Of a DNA stretch of 22,867 nt, positions 1,228 through 22,867 are shown piece after piece. Below the pieces are notes generated by a model. It had not been told where the DNA came from. It was given only the letters and a program-made list of their open reading frames with translations, and did not search any database. The translations under genes were made by a program, and so were the position numbers. The DNA comes from a virus. Numbering within the stretch: position 1 is the first letter of the stretch; every line of letters begins with the position of its first letter. The stretch covers positions 1 to 22,867 of IMG/VR virus record IMGVR_UViG_3300033146_001906. One strand, given 5' to 3'.

Positions 1228-3834
1228 TTAATTAAATATACCACCTCTTTTTAATTCATATTTTTGTATCGCATTTTCTAAAGGTATTCTACTATATAAA
1301 TACACGTTACAATCATTTCGTAACACTCTTGCTCGTCCGATTGCTTGTATCAATTCACCAGTAACCATTTCTAACTGCAAATCTCTTAATATAGGTTCTC
1401 TAAATGTATTTAATTTAAATTTAAAAGATCCATATATAACTTCTTGCTTTGAATAATTATGTTCATCAAATAAATTTTCATTAGATATTGTTCTAGCCAT
1501 TAATAAATAAGTCCAATCTGGATAATATGGTGTTCCTACTACTGCAATATCATTTCCACTTAAACTATCAAAACCAGTTAATTTACCAAAATAAATATCT
1601 TTTAATGAATTTTTAAATTTAGATAATTGAGATCTAAATGTTATTATTTGAATATCTTCCTTATTTTTATCTTTTAAATCTTTTTTAATGTAATTTAATG
1701 AATATTGTTTTTTATTATTTAATGATGATCGTGAATAAGTATAACGAGTATCTTGATATATTGTTCCTATAGTTTCAACATTATCAATACTATAAAATTT
1801 AACTCTATCTTTATATAATGCTTTATAAATCGTTTCAGATGCTGTTGCACTTAGTATTATTATTTTTTTATCTTTATTTAAATCTTTACGAGTTGTAAAA
1901 TGAATATTAGAATTTTCAATTACTTTTAATATATTTTTAAAATTACTATTAACATCAATATCTATAAATATTTCTTTTGCAAATAATAATTCTATAATAT
2001 TAGAATCATATATTTTATTTTTTATTAATTCTTCTACTATTTTTGATTTTATATTATTATTTGATGATACATTGCTTCTTATAAAAAATGGTATACCATC
2101 TTTAAGTTTACCAATTAATTTATTTAATAATAATGATAATAATGTATTACTATTTTTAAATTTATTTACTAAATTTATAAGATCTTTACCTTTAACTGTA
2201 TTTATTTTAATTATACTTTGAAATGGATCTTCATCATATATATAAGTATTTTGTTTAAAATCAACAAATTGTGTCATTTGATGTGTTGTAATAACATTTA
2301 CATTTCCTTTATATGATTCTTTTATTTTATTACGATATTCTTTTATATTTTTTTTATCAACTTTATCAGCATTTTTGTCTTTTAAAAGATGATTTAATAA
2401 ATTAGTTACTTCATCTGATAAACCAACACGATATAAATAATTAATTTCTTTAGTTAATTTATCAGATAATATAGGAAATTCAGGAGTTGTTGTAAATTTA
2501 TTTTCTTTAGATGCTTTTAATATACGATTTGATACCTCATCTTTTAAACTATGATTAGGAAATGCCATTACAACATTCATATTTTTAATATTTTCTAATA
2601 AACGTGTTTTACCTAATCCTGTTGGAACTTTAATGATATGTATCTTTTTATCATCACTATTTATAGCTTCATTATAATACTTTATTAATTTTTGTTCTGC
2701 TTCCATAAGTGTTATACCTTTTTTAATTTCTTTTATACGTTTAATAATATAGTCTTTTTCTGGTTTACATTCTAAAAAAAATGATAAATTACCATTATAT
2801 TTATATTTTTTAATAGATTTTATTAAATTAAAATCTGAATCATTATAATGACTTATACCTTTATTGTTATTTAATTTCATTGTGTCTTTTAAAAACTTTT
2901 CACCACCATTAATCCATAATAAATTTTTTATCAAATATAATAAACTTGCATAAGCTAAATGACCATTAACAAATGTATAAAATAATTTATTGTTCTCTAT
3001 CGCATATTCCCAATCAAAACGTTGAACTATATTATGTACCGGATGTATATCTATATTATTATCTTTCAATACATTAAGCCATTCTAAATTTGTTAAAATA
3101 TTGGTTGTCAATTGTTTATTAGACGAACTTAGGTGTTTTTTGCAATTTTTACTCAAGTGGTTTATATATATATAACCACTTGAGTAAAAATTGAATTTTT
3201 TGTTAAAGTTCGTTTCTAAATCATTGTTAGCCAAAATGTTTAAAATTTCATTAGTTGAATTTAAAGTAGAATCTGAGTAAATTAATTTTTTACCTCCATA
3301 AAACATTCGTGCTAAATCAAACGTTGCTTTGTCACTTTCAGTAAACAATTTTTTAAACCAATTTAAAACATTTTTTATTTGATTTTTATCTTTAATAATT
3401 TTATCAAGAATGATAACTATTCTAAATTTACGTTTTGAATTACTATCATTAAAAGTTGAATAAACTATATTAGGAATAATACCAAAAAAATTAAGTTTAT
3501 CCATAATAATATTAGGTGTAACCCCTGAATCAAAATCTAAACCTATTATTTGTGATTTAGACCAAGTAGTATTAGATTTACTATTGTTTCTATTAATTTC
3601 AAATATACCAGGAAACCAAGTATAACCATTAGAAATTTTATACACAAATTCATTAAAAGGAATTAATTCTGTTTTAGATTGTTTTTTAATTTTAGGAACT
3701 TGAACAGGTGAGGGTTTAATTTTATATGATATTTTATCTATAGTAACTAAAATATTTGTTTGCTCTTCTTTTTTAATATTTTTCAATTCTTCAAAAATAT
3801 TGAAATCATTAGGATCATAACTCTGTGTTTGCAT
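1228..3834 (-). CDS. Primase-helicase fusion, 868 aa
   Basis: One long protein that probably both primes and unwinds DNA during phage replication. Near residues 96-102 it carries IIGLDFD, matching the DxD metal-binding motif of archaeo-eukaryotic primase (AEP) domains. YSTF (125-128) and KRKFRIVIILD (134-144) follow as expected for such a domain in phages and mobile elements. The C-terminal half has superfamily 2 helicase motifs: Walker A VPTGLGKT (403-410), ITTHQM (515-520), DEDP (534-537), LSATAS (661-666) and the arginine-finger motif QAIGRARVLR (830-839). No zinc finger is evident. It starts at ATG 3834 with an A-rich leader. The gene is on the opposite strand to the virion operon and has a structured 566-base region upstream. 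The helicase assignment is strong; the primase assignment rests on the DxD context and general pattern. Confidence 0.82.
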   Translation of the reverse strand: MQTQSYDPNDFNIFEELKNIKKEEQTNILVTIDKISYKIKPSPVQVPKIKKQSKTELIPFNEFVYKISNGYTWFPGIFEINRNNSKSNTTWSKSQIIGLDFDSGVTPNIIMDKLNFFGIIPNIVYSTFNDSNSKRKFRIVIILDKIIKDKNQIKNVLNWFKKLFTESDKATFDLARMFYGGKKLIYSDSTLNSTNEILNILANNDLETNFNKKFNFYSSGYIYINHLSKNCKKHLSSSNKQLTTNILTNLEWLNVLKDNNIDIHPVHNIVQRFDWEYAIENNKLFYTFVNGHLAYASLLYLIKNLLWINGGEKFLKDTMKLNNNKGISHYNDSDFNLIKSIKKYKYNGNLSFFLECKPEKDYIIKRIKEIKKGITLMEAEQKLIKYYNEAINSDDKKIHIIKVPTGLGKTRLLENIKNMNVVMAFPNHSLKDEVSNRILKASKENKFTTTPEFPILSDKLTKEINYLYRVGLSDEVTNLLNHLLKDKNADKVDKKNIKEYRNKIKESYKGNVNVITTHQMTQFVDFKQNTYIYDEDPFQSIIKINTVKGKDLINLVNKFKNSNTLLSLLLNKLIGKLKDGIPFFIRSNVSSNNNIKSKIVEELIKNKIYDSNIIELLFAKEIFIDIDVNSNFKNILKVIENSNIHFTTRKDLNKDKKIIILSATASETIYKALYKDRVKFYSIDNVETIGTIYQDTRYTYSRSSLNNKKQYSLNYIKKDLKDKNKEDIQIITFRSQLSKFKNSLKDIYFGKLTGFDSLSGNDIAVVGTPYYPDWTYLLMARTISNENLFDEHNYSKQEVIYGSFKFKLNTFREPILRDLQLEMVTGELIQAIGRARVLRNDCNVYLYSRIPLENAIQKYELKRGGIFN

Positions 3835-3881
3835 ATTTTTAATTTATTTTATTTGTTTTGCATTTATATTTCTTTATAAAG

Positions 3882-3942
3882 TTGTTAGAGAGTGGTAATG
3901 CACGGCCAAAGATTATTAAAAAACCTAACCACTCTCTAACAA
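3882..3942. repeat. Perfect 15-bp inverted repeat
   Basis: TTGTTAGAGAGTGGT (3882-3896) is the exact reverse complement of 3928-3942, with a 31-base spacer. The arms are G+C-richer than the surroundings. The structure could be an RNA hairpin on either strand, a protein-binding site or a mobile-element remnant. It lies about 48 bases upstream of the primase-helicase start, in that gene's probable leader. Confidence 0.8.
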
Positions 3943-4007
3943 GGATAACTTTTGTTGTAGTTCCAAACAAGTTCTTTAAAAGTGCAATGAATGGATCAAG
4001 AACATAA
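3882..4007. other. G+C-richer island with a possible structured RNA
   Basis: This stretch of about 125 bases has visibly more G and C than the extremely A+T-rich gap around it. It contains the 15-bp inverted repeat, a possible 5-bp hairpin near 3952-3970 (TTGTT/AACAA), and GTTCTT (3971-3976) paired with AAGAAC (3998-4003). It is also open on both strands. On the plus strand TTG at 3882 could encode 41 residues ending FKSAMNGSRT. On the minus strand a start-less frame contains VREWLGFLIIFGRALPLSNN. Codons such as CGG and CCA are unlike the phage genes. I read it as a conserved non-coding element, leader RNA or acquired host fragment rather than a proven gene. Confidence 0.4.
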
Positions 4008-4250
4008 CACTAATAAATTAATATTTTATAATATAATATATATATACAAATAATGTTTTCAAAAAATTTAATTTTTGTTATTTATAATCATTCTAAATAG
4101 GAAAGTATACTTTACATTTAAAGCCAAAAATAACCACTTTTTTTAATGGCTTAATTAATTAATTATTAATACGTTAAATGCTGTTTATACCAAAAAAAAG
4201 TATCAACATATATAATACATTAAATTCTTTAATATTATTTTAATGGTTTT

Positions 4251-4300
4251 TATAATAAAGTTTTATAAAGAATAATAAAGTTTAATAAAGTTTAATAAAG
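4251..4300. repeat. Five 10-bp phased AATAAAG repeats, candidate origin
   Basis: Five consecutive 10-base units end in AAG with exact 10-base spacing: TATAATAAAG, TTTTATAAAG, AATAATAAAG and TTTAATAAAG twice. A 10-bp phase places each A-rich unit on the same face of the helix, which favours bending. A further pair, ATTTTAACAA and ATTTTAACAG, lies at 4341-4360 with the same period. The location in a gene-free gap upstream of the primase-helicase makes a replication origin or regulator-binding array plausible. The repeat is seen; the function is inferred. Confidence 0.5.
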
Positions 4301-4400
4301 ATTCTTTTAAATAAATTTAATAAAATACATATGATTTTTTATTTTAACAAATTTTAACAGGTGTACTTTAAATGCAGATTAATGATTATTAAATAAAGTT

Positions 4401-4787
4401 TTATGGTTTTATTAAAATAAATCCTTTAGTTTGTTTTAAAATACCTTTAAGAAGGCTACTTAAATGACCAAGACTGAGTTTATATTGGTTTGACAGTTGT
4501 TTTCTTGTTCCAGTTACAAAACCGTGCTGAGGATGATATAATGTAATATAAGGAACCATTTTTTTATAATAAATTCTACGATATTTAACTTTAGCTTTAA
4601 CTTTAGCTTTAACTTTAATTTCAGGTTTAATAGTATTGAAGTTATCATAATAATATTCTTTAAAAGGATTTAGTTTTCTATCGATATCGCTTTCAAAAAG
4701 TTCACCATTTAATATAGCTTCTTTAGTTAGACCCCAAAAATGTTGATAATTTATATGATAATAATAATACTTTTGATAAGGTTTCAT
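4401..4787 (-). CDS. Small basic protein with NUMOD1-like DNA-binding tail
   Basis: 128 residues. The N-terminal half is rich in Tyr (KYYYYHINYQ) and matches nothing I recognise. Residues 57-69 form a Lys/Val/Ala repeat (KVKAKVKAKVK) encoded by a tandem 12-base repeat, probably a flexible basic linker. The C-terminal segment, about 82-126, reads HPQHGFVTGTRKQLSNQYKL followed by LSLGHLSSLLKGIL. This fits the NUMOD1-type helix-turn-helix found beside homing endonuclease domains: a short strand, then 'G..r.ls..y.ls...ls.llkg.....kGf'. No catalytic HNH or GIY-YIG motif is present, so it may be a stand-alone DNA-binding protein or an endonuclease relic. It is divergent from the nuclease gene at 4884 and shares a 96-base control region with it. 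Confidence 0.6.
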   Translation of the reverse strand: MKPYQKYYYYHINYQHFWGLTKEAILNGELFESDIDRKLNPFKEYYYDNFNTIKPEIKVKAKVKAKVKYRRIYYKKMVPYITLYHPQHGFVTGTRKQLSNQYKLSLGHLSSLLKGILKQTKGFILIKP

Positions 4788-7619: not shown

Positions 7620-7693
7620 TGCGGGGTGGAATAGTGGTCAAGTTCGACAGGCTCATATCCTGTAGGTCGTAGGTTCAAATCCTACCTCCGCAA
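7620..7693 (+). tRNA. tRNA with CAU anticodon, initiator-like
   Basis: A 74-base cloverleaf folds completely. The acceptor stem TGCGGGG pairs with CTCCGCA with one G-U. The D stem is GAAT/GTTC, the anticodon stem ACAGG/CCTGT with loop CTCATAT (anticodon 7654-7656), the variable loop AGGTC and the T stem GTAGG/CCTAC with loop TTCAAAT. The discriminator is A; no CCA is encoded. Much of the sequence matches bacterial tRNA-fMet (GCGGGGTGGA, AGGTCGT, GGTTCAAATCC, CCGCAA). The D stem has A11-U24, the purine-pyrimidine order typical of initiators. It departs from the type in having U1-A72 instead of the C1xA72 mismatch, and A29-U41 in place of one of three G-C pairs. Elongator Met or Ile2 is less likely. 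Confidence 0.85.
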
Positions 7694-7699
7694 CATATT

Positions 7700-8137: not shown

Positions 8138-9636
8138 AAAAACAAGATAAAAAATATTATACACAAGAACGAGAAAGTTATTATAATTCTTTGAGATATA
8201 AAGTAGGTTTAAATAATAATTTGAAAAGTAAACAAGATAATACAACTTTACAAGATTTTCAATTATTTGTATCTACTTATTTTAAACATTATACTACAGA
8301 TAAAAACAATAATGAAATAAAATTATCTAAATATCATTTAGATTTAATAAATGAATTATATAATGATAAAGTTGAAATATTAGCTGAATTTTCAAGAGGA
8401 TTCGCTAAAACAACAGTTTTCTCTTTATTTGCACCTATTTATTTTATGTTAAAAAATGAAGCACATTTAATATTATTAATATCAGCTACTAAAGATGCAG
8501 CTGTTAAACAATTAATAAATATTCAAGTTGAATTAGAAACAAATCAAAAATTAATAGCAGATTTTGGTCCATTTATTAAAGATGGAAGTTGGTCTAAAGG
8601 TGATTTTGTTGTTAATAATTATGATTGTAAATTTACTTGTGCTGGTAAAGGTCAATCAACAAGAGGTCTACGATATAAAAAATATAGACCTGATTTTATA
8701 ATAGTAGATGATATTGATACTGATAAAGATTCAAGGAATAAAGCATTAGTATTACATCATTATGATTGGTTAATGCAATCTGTATTATCTTCAATGGAAC
8801 TTACTAAATATAAATTTTTATTTGTTGGTAATAGGTTTAGCCATAATATGGTATTAAATCATTTTTCAAAAGTTGAAGGTATTAAATATATTAAAGTTAA
8901 TGCACTTGATGAAAATGGTGAAAGTAATTGGAAAGATAGATATTCTACTGAAGATTTAAATCATATTAAAAAGAAAATAGGCTCTATACGATTTCAAAGA
9001 GAATATATGAATACGCCTATTACGGTAGGTTCTATATTTAAAGAGGAATGGATACAATTTAAACATATTAATGATTTAATATCTTATCAATACATTGTTA
9101 CTTATGTTGATCCATCTTGGAAAAAAGAAGGTGATTATAAAGCAATTATAACTTTAGGGTTTATAAAAAATGAGTATCATATAATAGATATTTATTTAAG
9201 GAAAGAAACAATGTCAAATGTTATTGAATATTTATATGAATTAAATGATAAATTATTAAAAAGTGCATATTCTATTTATTATGAAGCTAATTTTGCACAA
9301 GATTTACATCAAAAAGAATTTGATGAAATAGCTGAACAAAAAGGATATACATTACCTATTAGACAAGATAAAAATAAAAAGGGTAATAAAGAAGCAAGAA
9401 TAGAAAGTTTATCAGTTGTATTTGAAAATAGAAAAATATTCTTTAATAATTTAATAAGCTTATCATTAGATTTTGAGGAATTTAAAAATCAATTACTTTC
9501 GTTTCCTGAAACTAAACACGATGATGGAATTGATGCACTACAATCAGCTTATGTAAAACTTAATTTAAAACTTAGACATTTAAAATTTGAACCTGTTTTA
9601 GGAGATAAATATGCAGGTAGAGATAATTTTTATTAA
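8134..9636 (+). CDS. Terminase large subunit
   Basis: 500 residues; the ATPase-nuclease motor that packages DNA into the prohead. Walker A is SRGFAKTT (87-94) and Walker B FIIVDD (188-193), followed by a coupling-type segment KFLFVGNRF (217-225). The RNase H-like nuclease domain supplies acidic residues in YVDPSWK (Asp326), YYEANF (Glu384) and HDDGIDAL (Asp463/464, Asp467). Length suits a full-length protein. The only usable start is TTG 8134, because a stop at 8110-8112 precedes it in frame and no ATG exists until well inside. The TTG overlaps the lysin's TGA, so translation is probably coupled to the lysin. The TTG may keep terminase output low. Confidence 0.95.
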   Translation: MKKQDKKYYTQERESYYNSLRYKVGLNNNLKSKQDNTTLQDFQLFVSTYFKHYTTDKNNNEIKLSKYHLDLINELYNDKVEILAEFSRGFAKTTVFSLFAPIYFMLKNEAHLILLISATKDAAVKQLINIQVELETNQKLIADFGPFIKDGSWSKGDFVVNNYDCKFTCAGKGQSTRGLRYKKYRPDFIIVDDIDTDKDSRNKALVLHHYDWLMQSVLSSMELTKYKFLFVGNRFSHNMVLNHFSKVEGIKYIKVNALDENGESNWKDRYSTEDLNHIKKKIGSIRFQREYMNTPITVGSIFKEEWIQFKHINDLISYQYIVTYVDPSWKKEGDYKAIITLGFIKNEYHIIDIYLRKETMSNVIEYLYELNDKLLKSAYSIYYEANFAQDLHQKEFDEIAEQKGYTLPIRQDKNKKGNKEARIESLSVVFENRKIFFNNLISLSLDFEEFKNQLLSFPETKHDDGIDALQSAYVKLNLKLRHLKFEPVLGDKYAGRDNFY

Positions 9637-9654
9637 AATATATAATAATATAAT

Positions 9655-10077
9655 ATGAAATTTATAGAAAAGAAAGATATAGAAAATTTAATTAAAAGTA
9701 ATATATTAGATGATATTACACAAAACAATAATGAAATATTAAATGATTTAGAATTGGTTGCAATTGACGAAATTGATAGTTATATTGGAGCTAAATATAA
9801 TACTAAAGATACATTTAATAAAACAGGAGATGATAGAAATAGATTTTTTGTTAATTTAATAACTGATATTTTATTATATCATTTACATTCAAGATTAACA
9901 CCAAGTTCAATTCCAATTATTCGACAAGAAAGATATGATAAAGCTATAAGTTATTTATATGAAGTTGGAAAGGGAATTATAACTCCTAATATTCCTTTAA
10001 ATTCATTACCATTTAATGTAAGAAGTAATGAAAGTTTATTTGGCACACAAGCTAAAACAAATGATGCAAGCTATTAA
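9655..10077 (+). CDS. Head-tail connector, DUF1320 (Mu gp36-like)
   Basis: 140 residues matching the DUF1320/Mu gp36 pattern: an N-terminal helix (MKFIEKKDIENLI), then ELVAIDEIDSYIGAKYNT, a helical core NLITDILLYHLHSR, and RQERYDKAISYLYEVGKG. Proteins of this type form part of the head-to-tail neck ring below the portal. The C-terminus is polar and looks disordered (SLFGTQAKTNDASY). It sits between the large terminase and the portal gene, with short A/T-rich gaps on each side, as expected in a packaging and head-completion operon. Confidence 0.82.
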   Translation: MKFIEKKDIENLIKSNILDDITQNNNEILNDLELVAIDEIDSYIGAKYNTKDTFNKTGDDRNRFFVNLITDILLYHLHSRLTPSSIPIIRQERYDKAISYLYEVGKGIITPNIPLNSLPFNVRSNESLFGTQAKTNDASY

Positions 10078-10091
10078 AAAATAAAATAAAT

Positions 10092-11273
10092 ATGAGATTA
10101 ATTGACAAACTATTTGGTAAAGTTAATAATAAAAAAGTAACAAGTAAAATAATAGAAAGAAATTCTTATCGAATTAGAGAATCTATACAAACTTGGAGAG
10201 ATGCTTTGACTTTAGCCGAAATGAAAGTATCGCCAGATTCAACTATCAAACCTGATAGACGTTCATTATTAAGAATATATAATGAAATTATGTTAGATAC
10301 ACATTTACAATCAGTAATCGATTTACGAAAAGAAAAAGTGTTAGAATATCCATTTAATTTATATACTGATAATGGTAAAATAGATGAAGAATCTACTAAA
10401 AAATTAAAATCAGAATGGTTTTATAAATTGTTATCATATGTTATAGATAGTGTTTTTTATGGACACTCATTAATACAAATAGATGCTATTTATAAAGATA
10501 ATATAGAACAAATAACATTAATAGATAGAATAAATGTTATACCTGAAACTGGTGAATATATGCCAGATATTTATAATAATATGAATAGCATATCTTATTT
10601 AGATTCAAAAACTTATGATTGGCTATTTGAGTTTTATAAAGAACGAGATGATTTAGGTTTATTAAAAGGTATAGCACCTTTAGTTTTATGGAAACGCTCT
10701 ACAATGTCAGCTTGGGCTGAATATACTGAAATATTTGGTATGCCTATCAGAATAGCTAAAACAACTTCAAATGTTGCTGCTGATAGAACAAGATTAGCTA
10801 ATTTTGTAAGAGATTTAGGTAAAAGTGCTTGGGCTGTATTAGATGATGAAGAAACTATTGAATTTATAGAAAATAAAAAATCAGATGCCTTTAATGTATA
10901 TGATAAATTTATAGATAAAATTAATAAAGAAATATCAAAAGCTGTTTTAGGAGTTACGCAAATTAATGAAGATGGTAGTTCTTATTCACAAAGTAAAGTA
11001 CACAGCGATCAATCAGAAATCAAAACAGCATCTGATTTAAGGAATATAGAATTTATAATAAAAGATAAAGTATTACCTAAATTAGTAAAGTTAGGTGTAT
11101 TACCAGAAAATTTAATATTTCAATTTGATAGAAGCACAGTTTTGAAAATAGAAGATCAAATATTAGTTGATGAAAAGTTGAATCTTATGTATCCTTTACA
11201 AAAAGATTACCTTAAAGAAAGATATAACGTAGAATTTGAAGATATAACATTTGAAATAGAAGATAATGAATAA
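10092..11273 (+). CDS. Portal protein, DUF935 (Mu gp29-like)
   Basis: 393 residues forming the dodecameric DNA gate at one head vertex. The sequence follows the DUF935 portal pattern: TLAEMKVSPDS early, then DTHLQSVIDLRKEKV (about 72-86), VIDSVFYGHSLIQID (117-131), and LVLWKRSTMSAWAEYTEIFG (197-216). A later region KINKEISKAVLGVTQINEDG (276-295) is the conserved helix and loop near the crown. It is somewhat shorter than the Mu protein. It overlaps the next start as TAATG. The MuF-type minor head gene that usually follows a Mu-type portal is not seen here; an exonuclease gene occupies that place. Confidence 0.9.
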   Translation: MRLIDKLFGKVNNKKVTSKIIERNSYRIRESIQTWRDALTLAEMKVSPDSTIKPDRRSLLRIYNEIMLDTHLQSVIDLRKEKVLEYPFNLYTDNGKIDEESTKKLKSEWFYKLLSYVIDSVFYGHSLIQIDAIYKDNIEQITLIDRINVIPETGEYMPDIYNNMNSISYLDSKTYDWLFEFYKERDDLGLLKGIAPLVLWKRSTMSAWAEYTEIFGMPIRIAKTTSNVAADRTRLANFVRDLGKSAWAVLDDEETIEFIENKKSDAFNVYDKFIDKINKEISKAVLGVTQINEDGSSYSQSKVHSDQSEIKTASDLRNIEFIIKDKVLPKLVKLGVLPENLIFQFDRSTVLKIEDQILVDEKLNLMYPLQKDYLKERYNVEFEDITFEIEDNE

Positions 11274-22639: not shown

Positions 22640-22867
22640 GTCTTAAAGAAAGGATAAGTCTGGTCTTAAAGTTAAAGAAAGGATAAGTCTGGTCTTAAAG
22701 TTAAAGAAAGGACAAGTCTGGTCTCAAAGTTGAAGAAAGGACAAGTCTGGTCTCAAAGTTGAAGAAAGGATAAGTCTGGTCTCAAAGTTGAAGAAAGGAT
22801 AAGTCTGGTCTCAAAGTTGAAGAAAGGATAAGTCTGGTCTCAAAGTTGAAGAAAGGATAAGTCTGGT
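22640..22867. repeat. 29-bp tandem repeat array, at least 8 copies
   Basis: The motif GG(A/C-variant)AAGTCTGGTC starts at 22652, 22681, 22710, 22739, 22768, 22797, 22826 and 22855, an exact 29-base spacing; the last unit is cut by the window edge. A shortened copy precedes the first. The units differ only by transitions: copies 1-2 have CTTAAAGTTAAAG, later copies CTCAAAGTTGAAG, and copies 3-4 have GGAC in place of GGAT. The period is not a multiple of three and stops fall in every frame on both strands, so it is not coding. No unique spacers separate the units, so it is not CRISPR. It may be a binding array or a packaging or recombination site; function is unknown. Confidence 0.85.

Follow-up and report, generated by a model that had tools for sequence, protein, structure and literature searches.

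The window, that is, the whole stretch of 22,867 bases analysed here, is a complete IMG/VR virus record with a G+C content of 23.7%. We detected tailed-phage genes in it, including a small and a large terminase, a Mu-type portal and a sheath gene. The terminase matches included Flavobacterium, Elizabethkingia, Porphyromonas and Bacteroides phages, with identities below 60% throughout, and because these are phages of Bacteroidota, a Bacteroidota host is likely for this phage. A tRNA-Met gene (CAT, 7620-7694) closely precedes the genes for NlpC/P60 and the large terminase. A tandem repeat with a unit of 29 bp (22646-22867; 7.7 copies, 97% matching) reaches the right end of the record and may be a sign of an assembly end or of terminal repeats.

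The region studied lies between two minus-strand genes, at 4401-4787 and 1228-3834. The latter encodes an 868-aa protein of replication type, whose N-terminus resembled phrog_25531 (function unknown; E 1e-19). The protein had no Pfam match and no PDB relative, its structure model was of poor quality (pLDDT 32), and the helicase-like motifs that it appears to contain are our own reading. Primase relatives were found neither in viral contigs nor in phage records. The features of the locus were the following:

1228-3834, minus strand: replication-type gene of 868 codons, downstream of the leader, named primase-helicase in the first-pass annotation.
3143-3193, no strand assigned: second perfect inverted repeat inside the replication gene, with arms of 20 bp (3143-3162 and 3174-3193) and a loop of 11.
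3882-4007, minus strand: G+C-richer island (33.3% G+C), the probable transcribed 5' leader of the replication gene, adjoining a predicted transcription start.
3882-3942, minus strand: perfect 15-bp stem-loop, the putative leader hairpin, with arms TTGTTAGAGAGTGGT (3882-3896) and ACCACTCTCTAACAA (3928-3942), a loop of 31 nt, and its end 47 nt before the ATG.
3943-3949, minus strand: GTTATCC, directly 5' of the hairpin and present once in the window.
4033-4063, minus strand: candidate promoter with a -33 element (TTTG, 4063-4060) and a -7 element (TATATTAT, 4040-4033), correctly spaced and with a poor -7.
4073-4099, minus strand: conserved block TATTTAGAATNNNTATAAATNACAAAA, recognised from the leader alignment with a related phage and from 29 viral stretches.
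4080-4098, minus strand: Fur-box-like near-palindrome ATTTAGAATGATTATAAAT, the core of the block.
4131-4138, minus strand: third copy of AGTGGTTA; the other two, at 3933-3926 and 3180-3173, both lie in hairpins.
4253-4300, no strand assigned: 10-bp tandem repeat (TAATAAAGTT, 4.8 copies) in a stretch of 9-14% G+C, possibly iterons or an unwinding element.

The first-pass annotation had described positions 3882 to 4007 as a compositional island in a barren A/T region, open on both strands and holding a perfect 15-bp inverted repeat together with further possible stems. The inverted repeat was confirmed. When each perfect repeat was given one point per base pair of its arm and two more for every G/C base in the arm, the repeat at 3143-3193 reached 32 and the island hairpin 27, while all others in the window scored 14 or less; among 100 dinucleotide Markov genomes the best score was 21, and none had a 15-bp arm holding 6 G+C. 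RNA folding of positions 3875-4015 gave z-scores of -2.7 for the plus strand and -3.5 for the minus strand, and the stem-loop at 3882-3942 a free energy of -23.8 kcal/mol, with the further stems appearing weak in the predicted fold. The contrast in composition held against the A/T surroundings and not against the phage as a whole: 7% of all 126-nt windows are as rich in G+C, so the island is distinct only from its neighbourhood. The frames, open over 54 and 55 codons on the two strands, are not unusual, since 171 out of 2000 dinucleotide-matched random sequences had at least 40 open codons on both strands. We rejected the hairpin as an intrinsic terminator, as neither arm runs into a T run and a scan of 3700-4450, restricted to loops of 3-8 nt, recovered none.

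Homologues of the island, which the first-pass annotation had proposed to seek in Bacteroidetes genomes and phages, were not found above noise. Blastn against phage and plasmid records returned chance matches only, and against 395 Bacteroidia genomes the best hit (E 3.7e-4) consisted of short scattered pieces that we read as noise, so that a conserved element derived from the host is not supported. Exact stem and loop patterns of the island had no match in IMG/VR, and neither strand matched a Pfam or NCBIfam family. A permissive Rfam search of 3800-4400 gave chance matches only; the gathering cut-off was passed by the tRNA at 7620-7693 and by nothing else.

A terminase search recovered one related phage species, represented by four contigs (L042-L045), of which L043, L044 and L045 were 99.83-99.99% identical to L042. 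The terminases of L042 and the window were 76% identical over residues 93-492, and their DNA blocks were collinear. The L042 terminase is longer (8744-11221; 825 aa vs 500 in the window) owing to an inserted Hom_end/LAGLIDADG homing-endonuclease stretch, which looks like an intein and is absent from the terminase of the window. GIY-YIG-like ORFs were also seen among the structural genes of the kin (L042:16096-16710 and L065:3255-4878), one of them confirmed by Pfam and the others identified by eye. The primase-like gene of the related species lies on the minus strand and encodes 489 aa (phrog_9765, DNA primase, E 2.5e-5), with no convincing alignment to the 868-aa protein of the window (E 0.06). 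Just behind this gene, L042 carries a perfect inverted repeat (2819-2919; arms of 34 bp, loop of 33 nt), followed by CGTTTTTTTT on the plus strand.

The leaders of the two genes share the conserved block, with a local alignment score of 70, whereas the highest score among 200 shuffles was 52 (0/200), and the distance from the end of the block to the ATG is 238 nt for the window and 235 nt for the related species. The leader of the latter also contains a hairpin (TGAGGGATA/TATCCCTCA, 4457-4481), in which 9 bp are nested in an 8-bp stem. Its repeat score was 17, and its fold was only slightly more stable than those of shuffled sequences (z -1.4 to -1.5). The two hairpins differ in sequence, and the leaders do not align over them, but their distances to the ATG are 47 and 45 nt, respectively, in a comparison that covers one related species only. 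The word GTTATCC occurs once in L042 (4498, minus strand), as it does in the window, and in each adjoins the leader stem.

The block itself was much more widely distributed. A search for TATTTAGAATNNNTATAAATNACAAAA across all IMG/VR contigs recovered 29 viral stretches, compared with 0 for the reversed-pattern control; after removal of the kin and of near-duplicates, 20 distinct loci remained. The block often precedes small phage ORFs. Promoters of Bacteroidota are characterised by TTTG at -33 and TAnnTTTG at -7. In 7 out of the 20 distinct loci TAnnTTTG started 36-40 nt after the block, while all other offsets within 60 nt downstream of it held 4 such words in total, and from this fixed spacing we concluded that the block lies just upstream of promoters in many loci. 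With the same spacing, transcription in the window would begin near 4019-4023, bordering the island. The -7 element of the kin is poorer than that of the window, and a sigma-70-type scan showed no enrichment (10 sites vs 7.8 expected from shuffles). A hairpin is no general companion of the block, because 11 other distinct block loci with a foldable leader, the kin excluded, had no perfect repeat scoring above 14; one block-bearing locus with a short leader (L104) had a fold z-score of -2.8, comparable to that of the window. We also observed a 12-bp palindrome, AAAGTATACTTT (4102-4113), which adjoins the Fur-like block and is present once in the window.

The core of the block resembles a binding site for the iron regulator Fur. 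It differs at 2 out of 19 bases from ATTTAGAATTATTCTAAAT, the Fur box of Riemerella anatipestifer, which the available text of the source gives as predicted and as supported by EMSA in that organism (PMC5609570); the site of the kin has 3 mismatches. In the window, positions 4098-4080 were the only place within two mismatches of that published box, and such a site was present in 2 out of 60 random genomes. A search for TTTAGAATNATTATAAA in 119 Bacteroidia genomes gave 22 matches in 17 genomes, compared with 5 for the reversed control. We examined 10 of these host loci: a cytochrome c type gene lay downstream in 6 and an Fe-S biosynthesis gene in 1, a TonB-receptor gene was found on the other side in 1, and 2 were uninformative. 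At the 8 informative loci, 4 gene assignments were obtained via Pfam, and 4 of the 6 cytochrome c assignments rest on similar N-termini. These genes fit an iron regulator and fall short of proof that it is Fur. Among the papers listed in a literature search, none dealt with Fur boxes in Bacteroidetes phages, which is weak evidence that none exists.

Given an upstream block that marks promoters in other Bacteroidota phages and hence a predicted start near 4020, the island would be transcribed as a leader. We therefore consider, with a probability of about 0.5, that it is the 5' untranslated mRNA leader of the replication gene, with a promoter and a putative Fur box in the adjoining A/T stretch and a hairpin in the leader itself. 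The promoter would start minus-strand transcription near 4020 and would carry, approximately 50-75 bp upstream of the start, the Bacteroidota-phage block that reads as a host Fur box. The resulting leader RNA, of about 185 nt, would fold into the 15-bp hairpin ahead of the ATG. Our guess is that the hairpin probably adjusts how stable the replication-gene mRNA is, how it is processed or how well it is translated: it may make the message decay more slowly, serve as a cleavage site, or be the target of a protein that exerts feedback on the gene. In this simplest account, the folding of the leader would also explain why the island is richer in G+C. The repeat, the block with its conservation and the equal spacing in the related species are shown; promoter, start site, transcription of the island and binding of Fur are all things that we infer from the sequence. 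The feature is real; most likely it is a structured leader of an ordinary kind, and what is unusual is its promoter setting. The first-pass annotation had taken the island to lie in what is probably the leader of the primase-helicase, with a structured regulatory RNA among its options, and this placement and this option are the ones that fit the evidence best.

The main rival is a replication origin acting at the level of DNA, in which the inverted repeats, the AGTGGTTA words, the iterons and the A/T stretch would be bound by a phage primase or initiator, as NrS-1 PrimPol binds its 8-nt word; we consider this doubtful as the explanation of the island, and both roles could coexist. All three copies of AGTGGTTA in the window are on one strand and within 1 kb at the replication gene, two of them in hairpins, but the motif was picked after looking, and at least three copies were found in 33 out of 300 order-2 random genomes. 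The repeat at 3143-3193, the strongest of the window, has a loop of the TATATATATAT type and shares AGTGGT/ACCACT loop-side pairs with the island hairpin; six identical loop-side positions in both hairpins have a chance of about 0.003 by a simple estimate that allows three registers. Five AGTGGT words in 1 kb were seen in 0 out of 300 random genomes, in a tally that counts each hairpin twice. The 10-bp repeats at 4253-4300 would suit iterons as well, and GC skew changes sign near 4-5 kb, yet it tracks gene direction. According to the available text of the sources, TTTGGTTA is a recognition word of NrS-1 PrimPol and GTGG a more efficient one (PMC8718748), the use of both words being documented in PMC8775771 and PMC7102993 as well, and the NrS-1 genome has two copies of the 8-nt site, which may serve as an origin (PMC7102993). 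Against an origin of this type, TTTGGTTA had 0 copies on either strand of the window, the PrimPol identity of the 868-aa protein is only putative (phrog_25531 of unknown function, no Pfam match, no PDB relative), and the kin has neither the AGTGGTTA cluster nor iterons like those at 4253-4300.

Slightly more doubtful is an inert hairpin, produced by template switching in a freely varying region and with no specific function. The island sequence is nowhere conserved, and the kin differs in the hairpins at this position and has a perfect repeat of 34 bp after the same gene, as if such repeats often arise here; an inert structure would nevertheless leave unexplained that stem G+C exceeds the phage average in both phages and that the distance from hairpin to ATG differs between them by no more than 2 nt. 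We judge it improbable that the repeat is a duplex DNA operator, at which a phage regulator of the operon would bind as a dimer, with no role in RNA: the symmetry is perfect, and a related second repeat and a single half-site word lie nearby, but a spacer of 31 bp is long for one such site, the second repeat is found some 640 bp into the gene, and the arms match no known regulator site. Far less probable than any of these is a host gene remnant or an old insertion. The encoded strings had seemed familiar in the first-pass annotation as spurious flavobacterial ORFs, and this impression led to a single genome locus, where tblastn matched the minus-strand frame, at 50% over 34 residues, to the strand opposite rnpA in a Bacteroidales MAG, a match that had been preselected through an exact 8-residue seed. 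A RnpA profile was built from 19 Bacteroidia sequences out of 30 fetched loci, 11 having been dropped by a motif filter, and it scored the plus-strand frame of the island at E 0.43, second to an unrelated frame of the window that matched by chance; the RnpA remnant was thus rejected, in line with the lack of Pfam and NCBIfam matches. An insertion element or MITE would show as extra length compared with a relative, and the one related species, which lacks the island sequence, has a leader equal in length to that of the window, which disfavours the old insertion that had also been proposed.

We consider the upstream block to matter more than the island, which, taken alone, is of an ordinary kind, a structured mRNA leader. 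The block provides a sequence handle for the early promoters of uncultured Bacteroidota phages, and if Fur binds it, host iron supply would help to set early-gene timing in a broad set of these phages. A bolder proposal, which we hold to be quite unlikely, is that many unrelated Bacteroidota phages have adopted an extended-tail form of the host Fur box as an upstream element of their early promoters, which would make early genes and replication genes responsive to host iron; here the replication gene would also be gated by the leader hairpin, and the loop-side AGTGGTTA word of that hairpin would in addition be a recognition site of the replication protein.

Compared with known systems, the block-bearing phage loci share with the Bacteroidota promoter the TAnnTTTG word at a fixed distance in 7 out of 20 cases, whereas the -7 element of the window departs from this consensus. 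The likeness to the Riemerella Fur box, as far as the available text describes it, extends over 17 out of 19 bases, the near-palindromic form and a likely location in a promoter region, and the word precedes iron-linked genes in hosts; the phage site differs in standing ahead of a replication gene and upstream of the -33 element, and the additional conserved tail of the phage block, NACAAAA, is absent from the box as published there. Short TGGTTA/GTGG words are clustered at the replication gene of the window in a way similar to the NrS-1 PrimPol site described in the accessible text, but the window lacks the exact 8-mer, two of its AGTGGTTA copies lie in perfect hairpins, and a PrimPol is only putatively encoded. 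In phage T4, structures in the mRNA leaders of genes 43 and 32 control these replication genes. The hairpin of the window differs from them in lying 47 nt from the start codon and in having no known ligand; shared with them is that a replication gene has a stem-loop in its untranslated leader.
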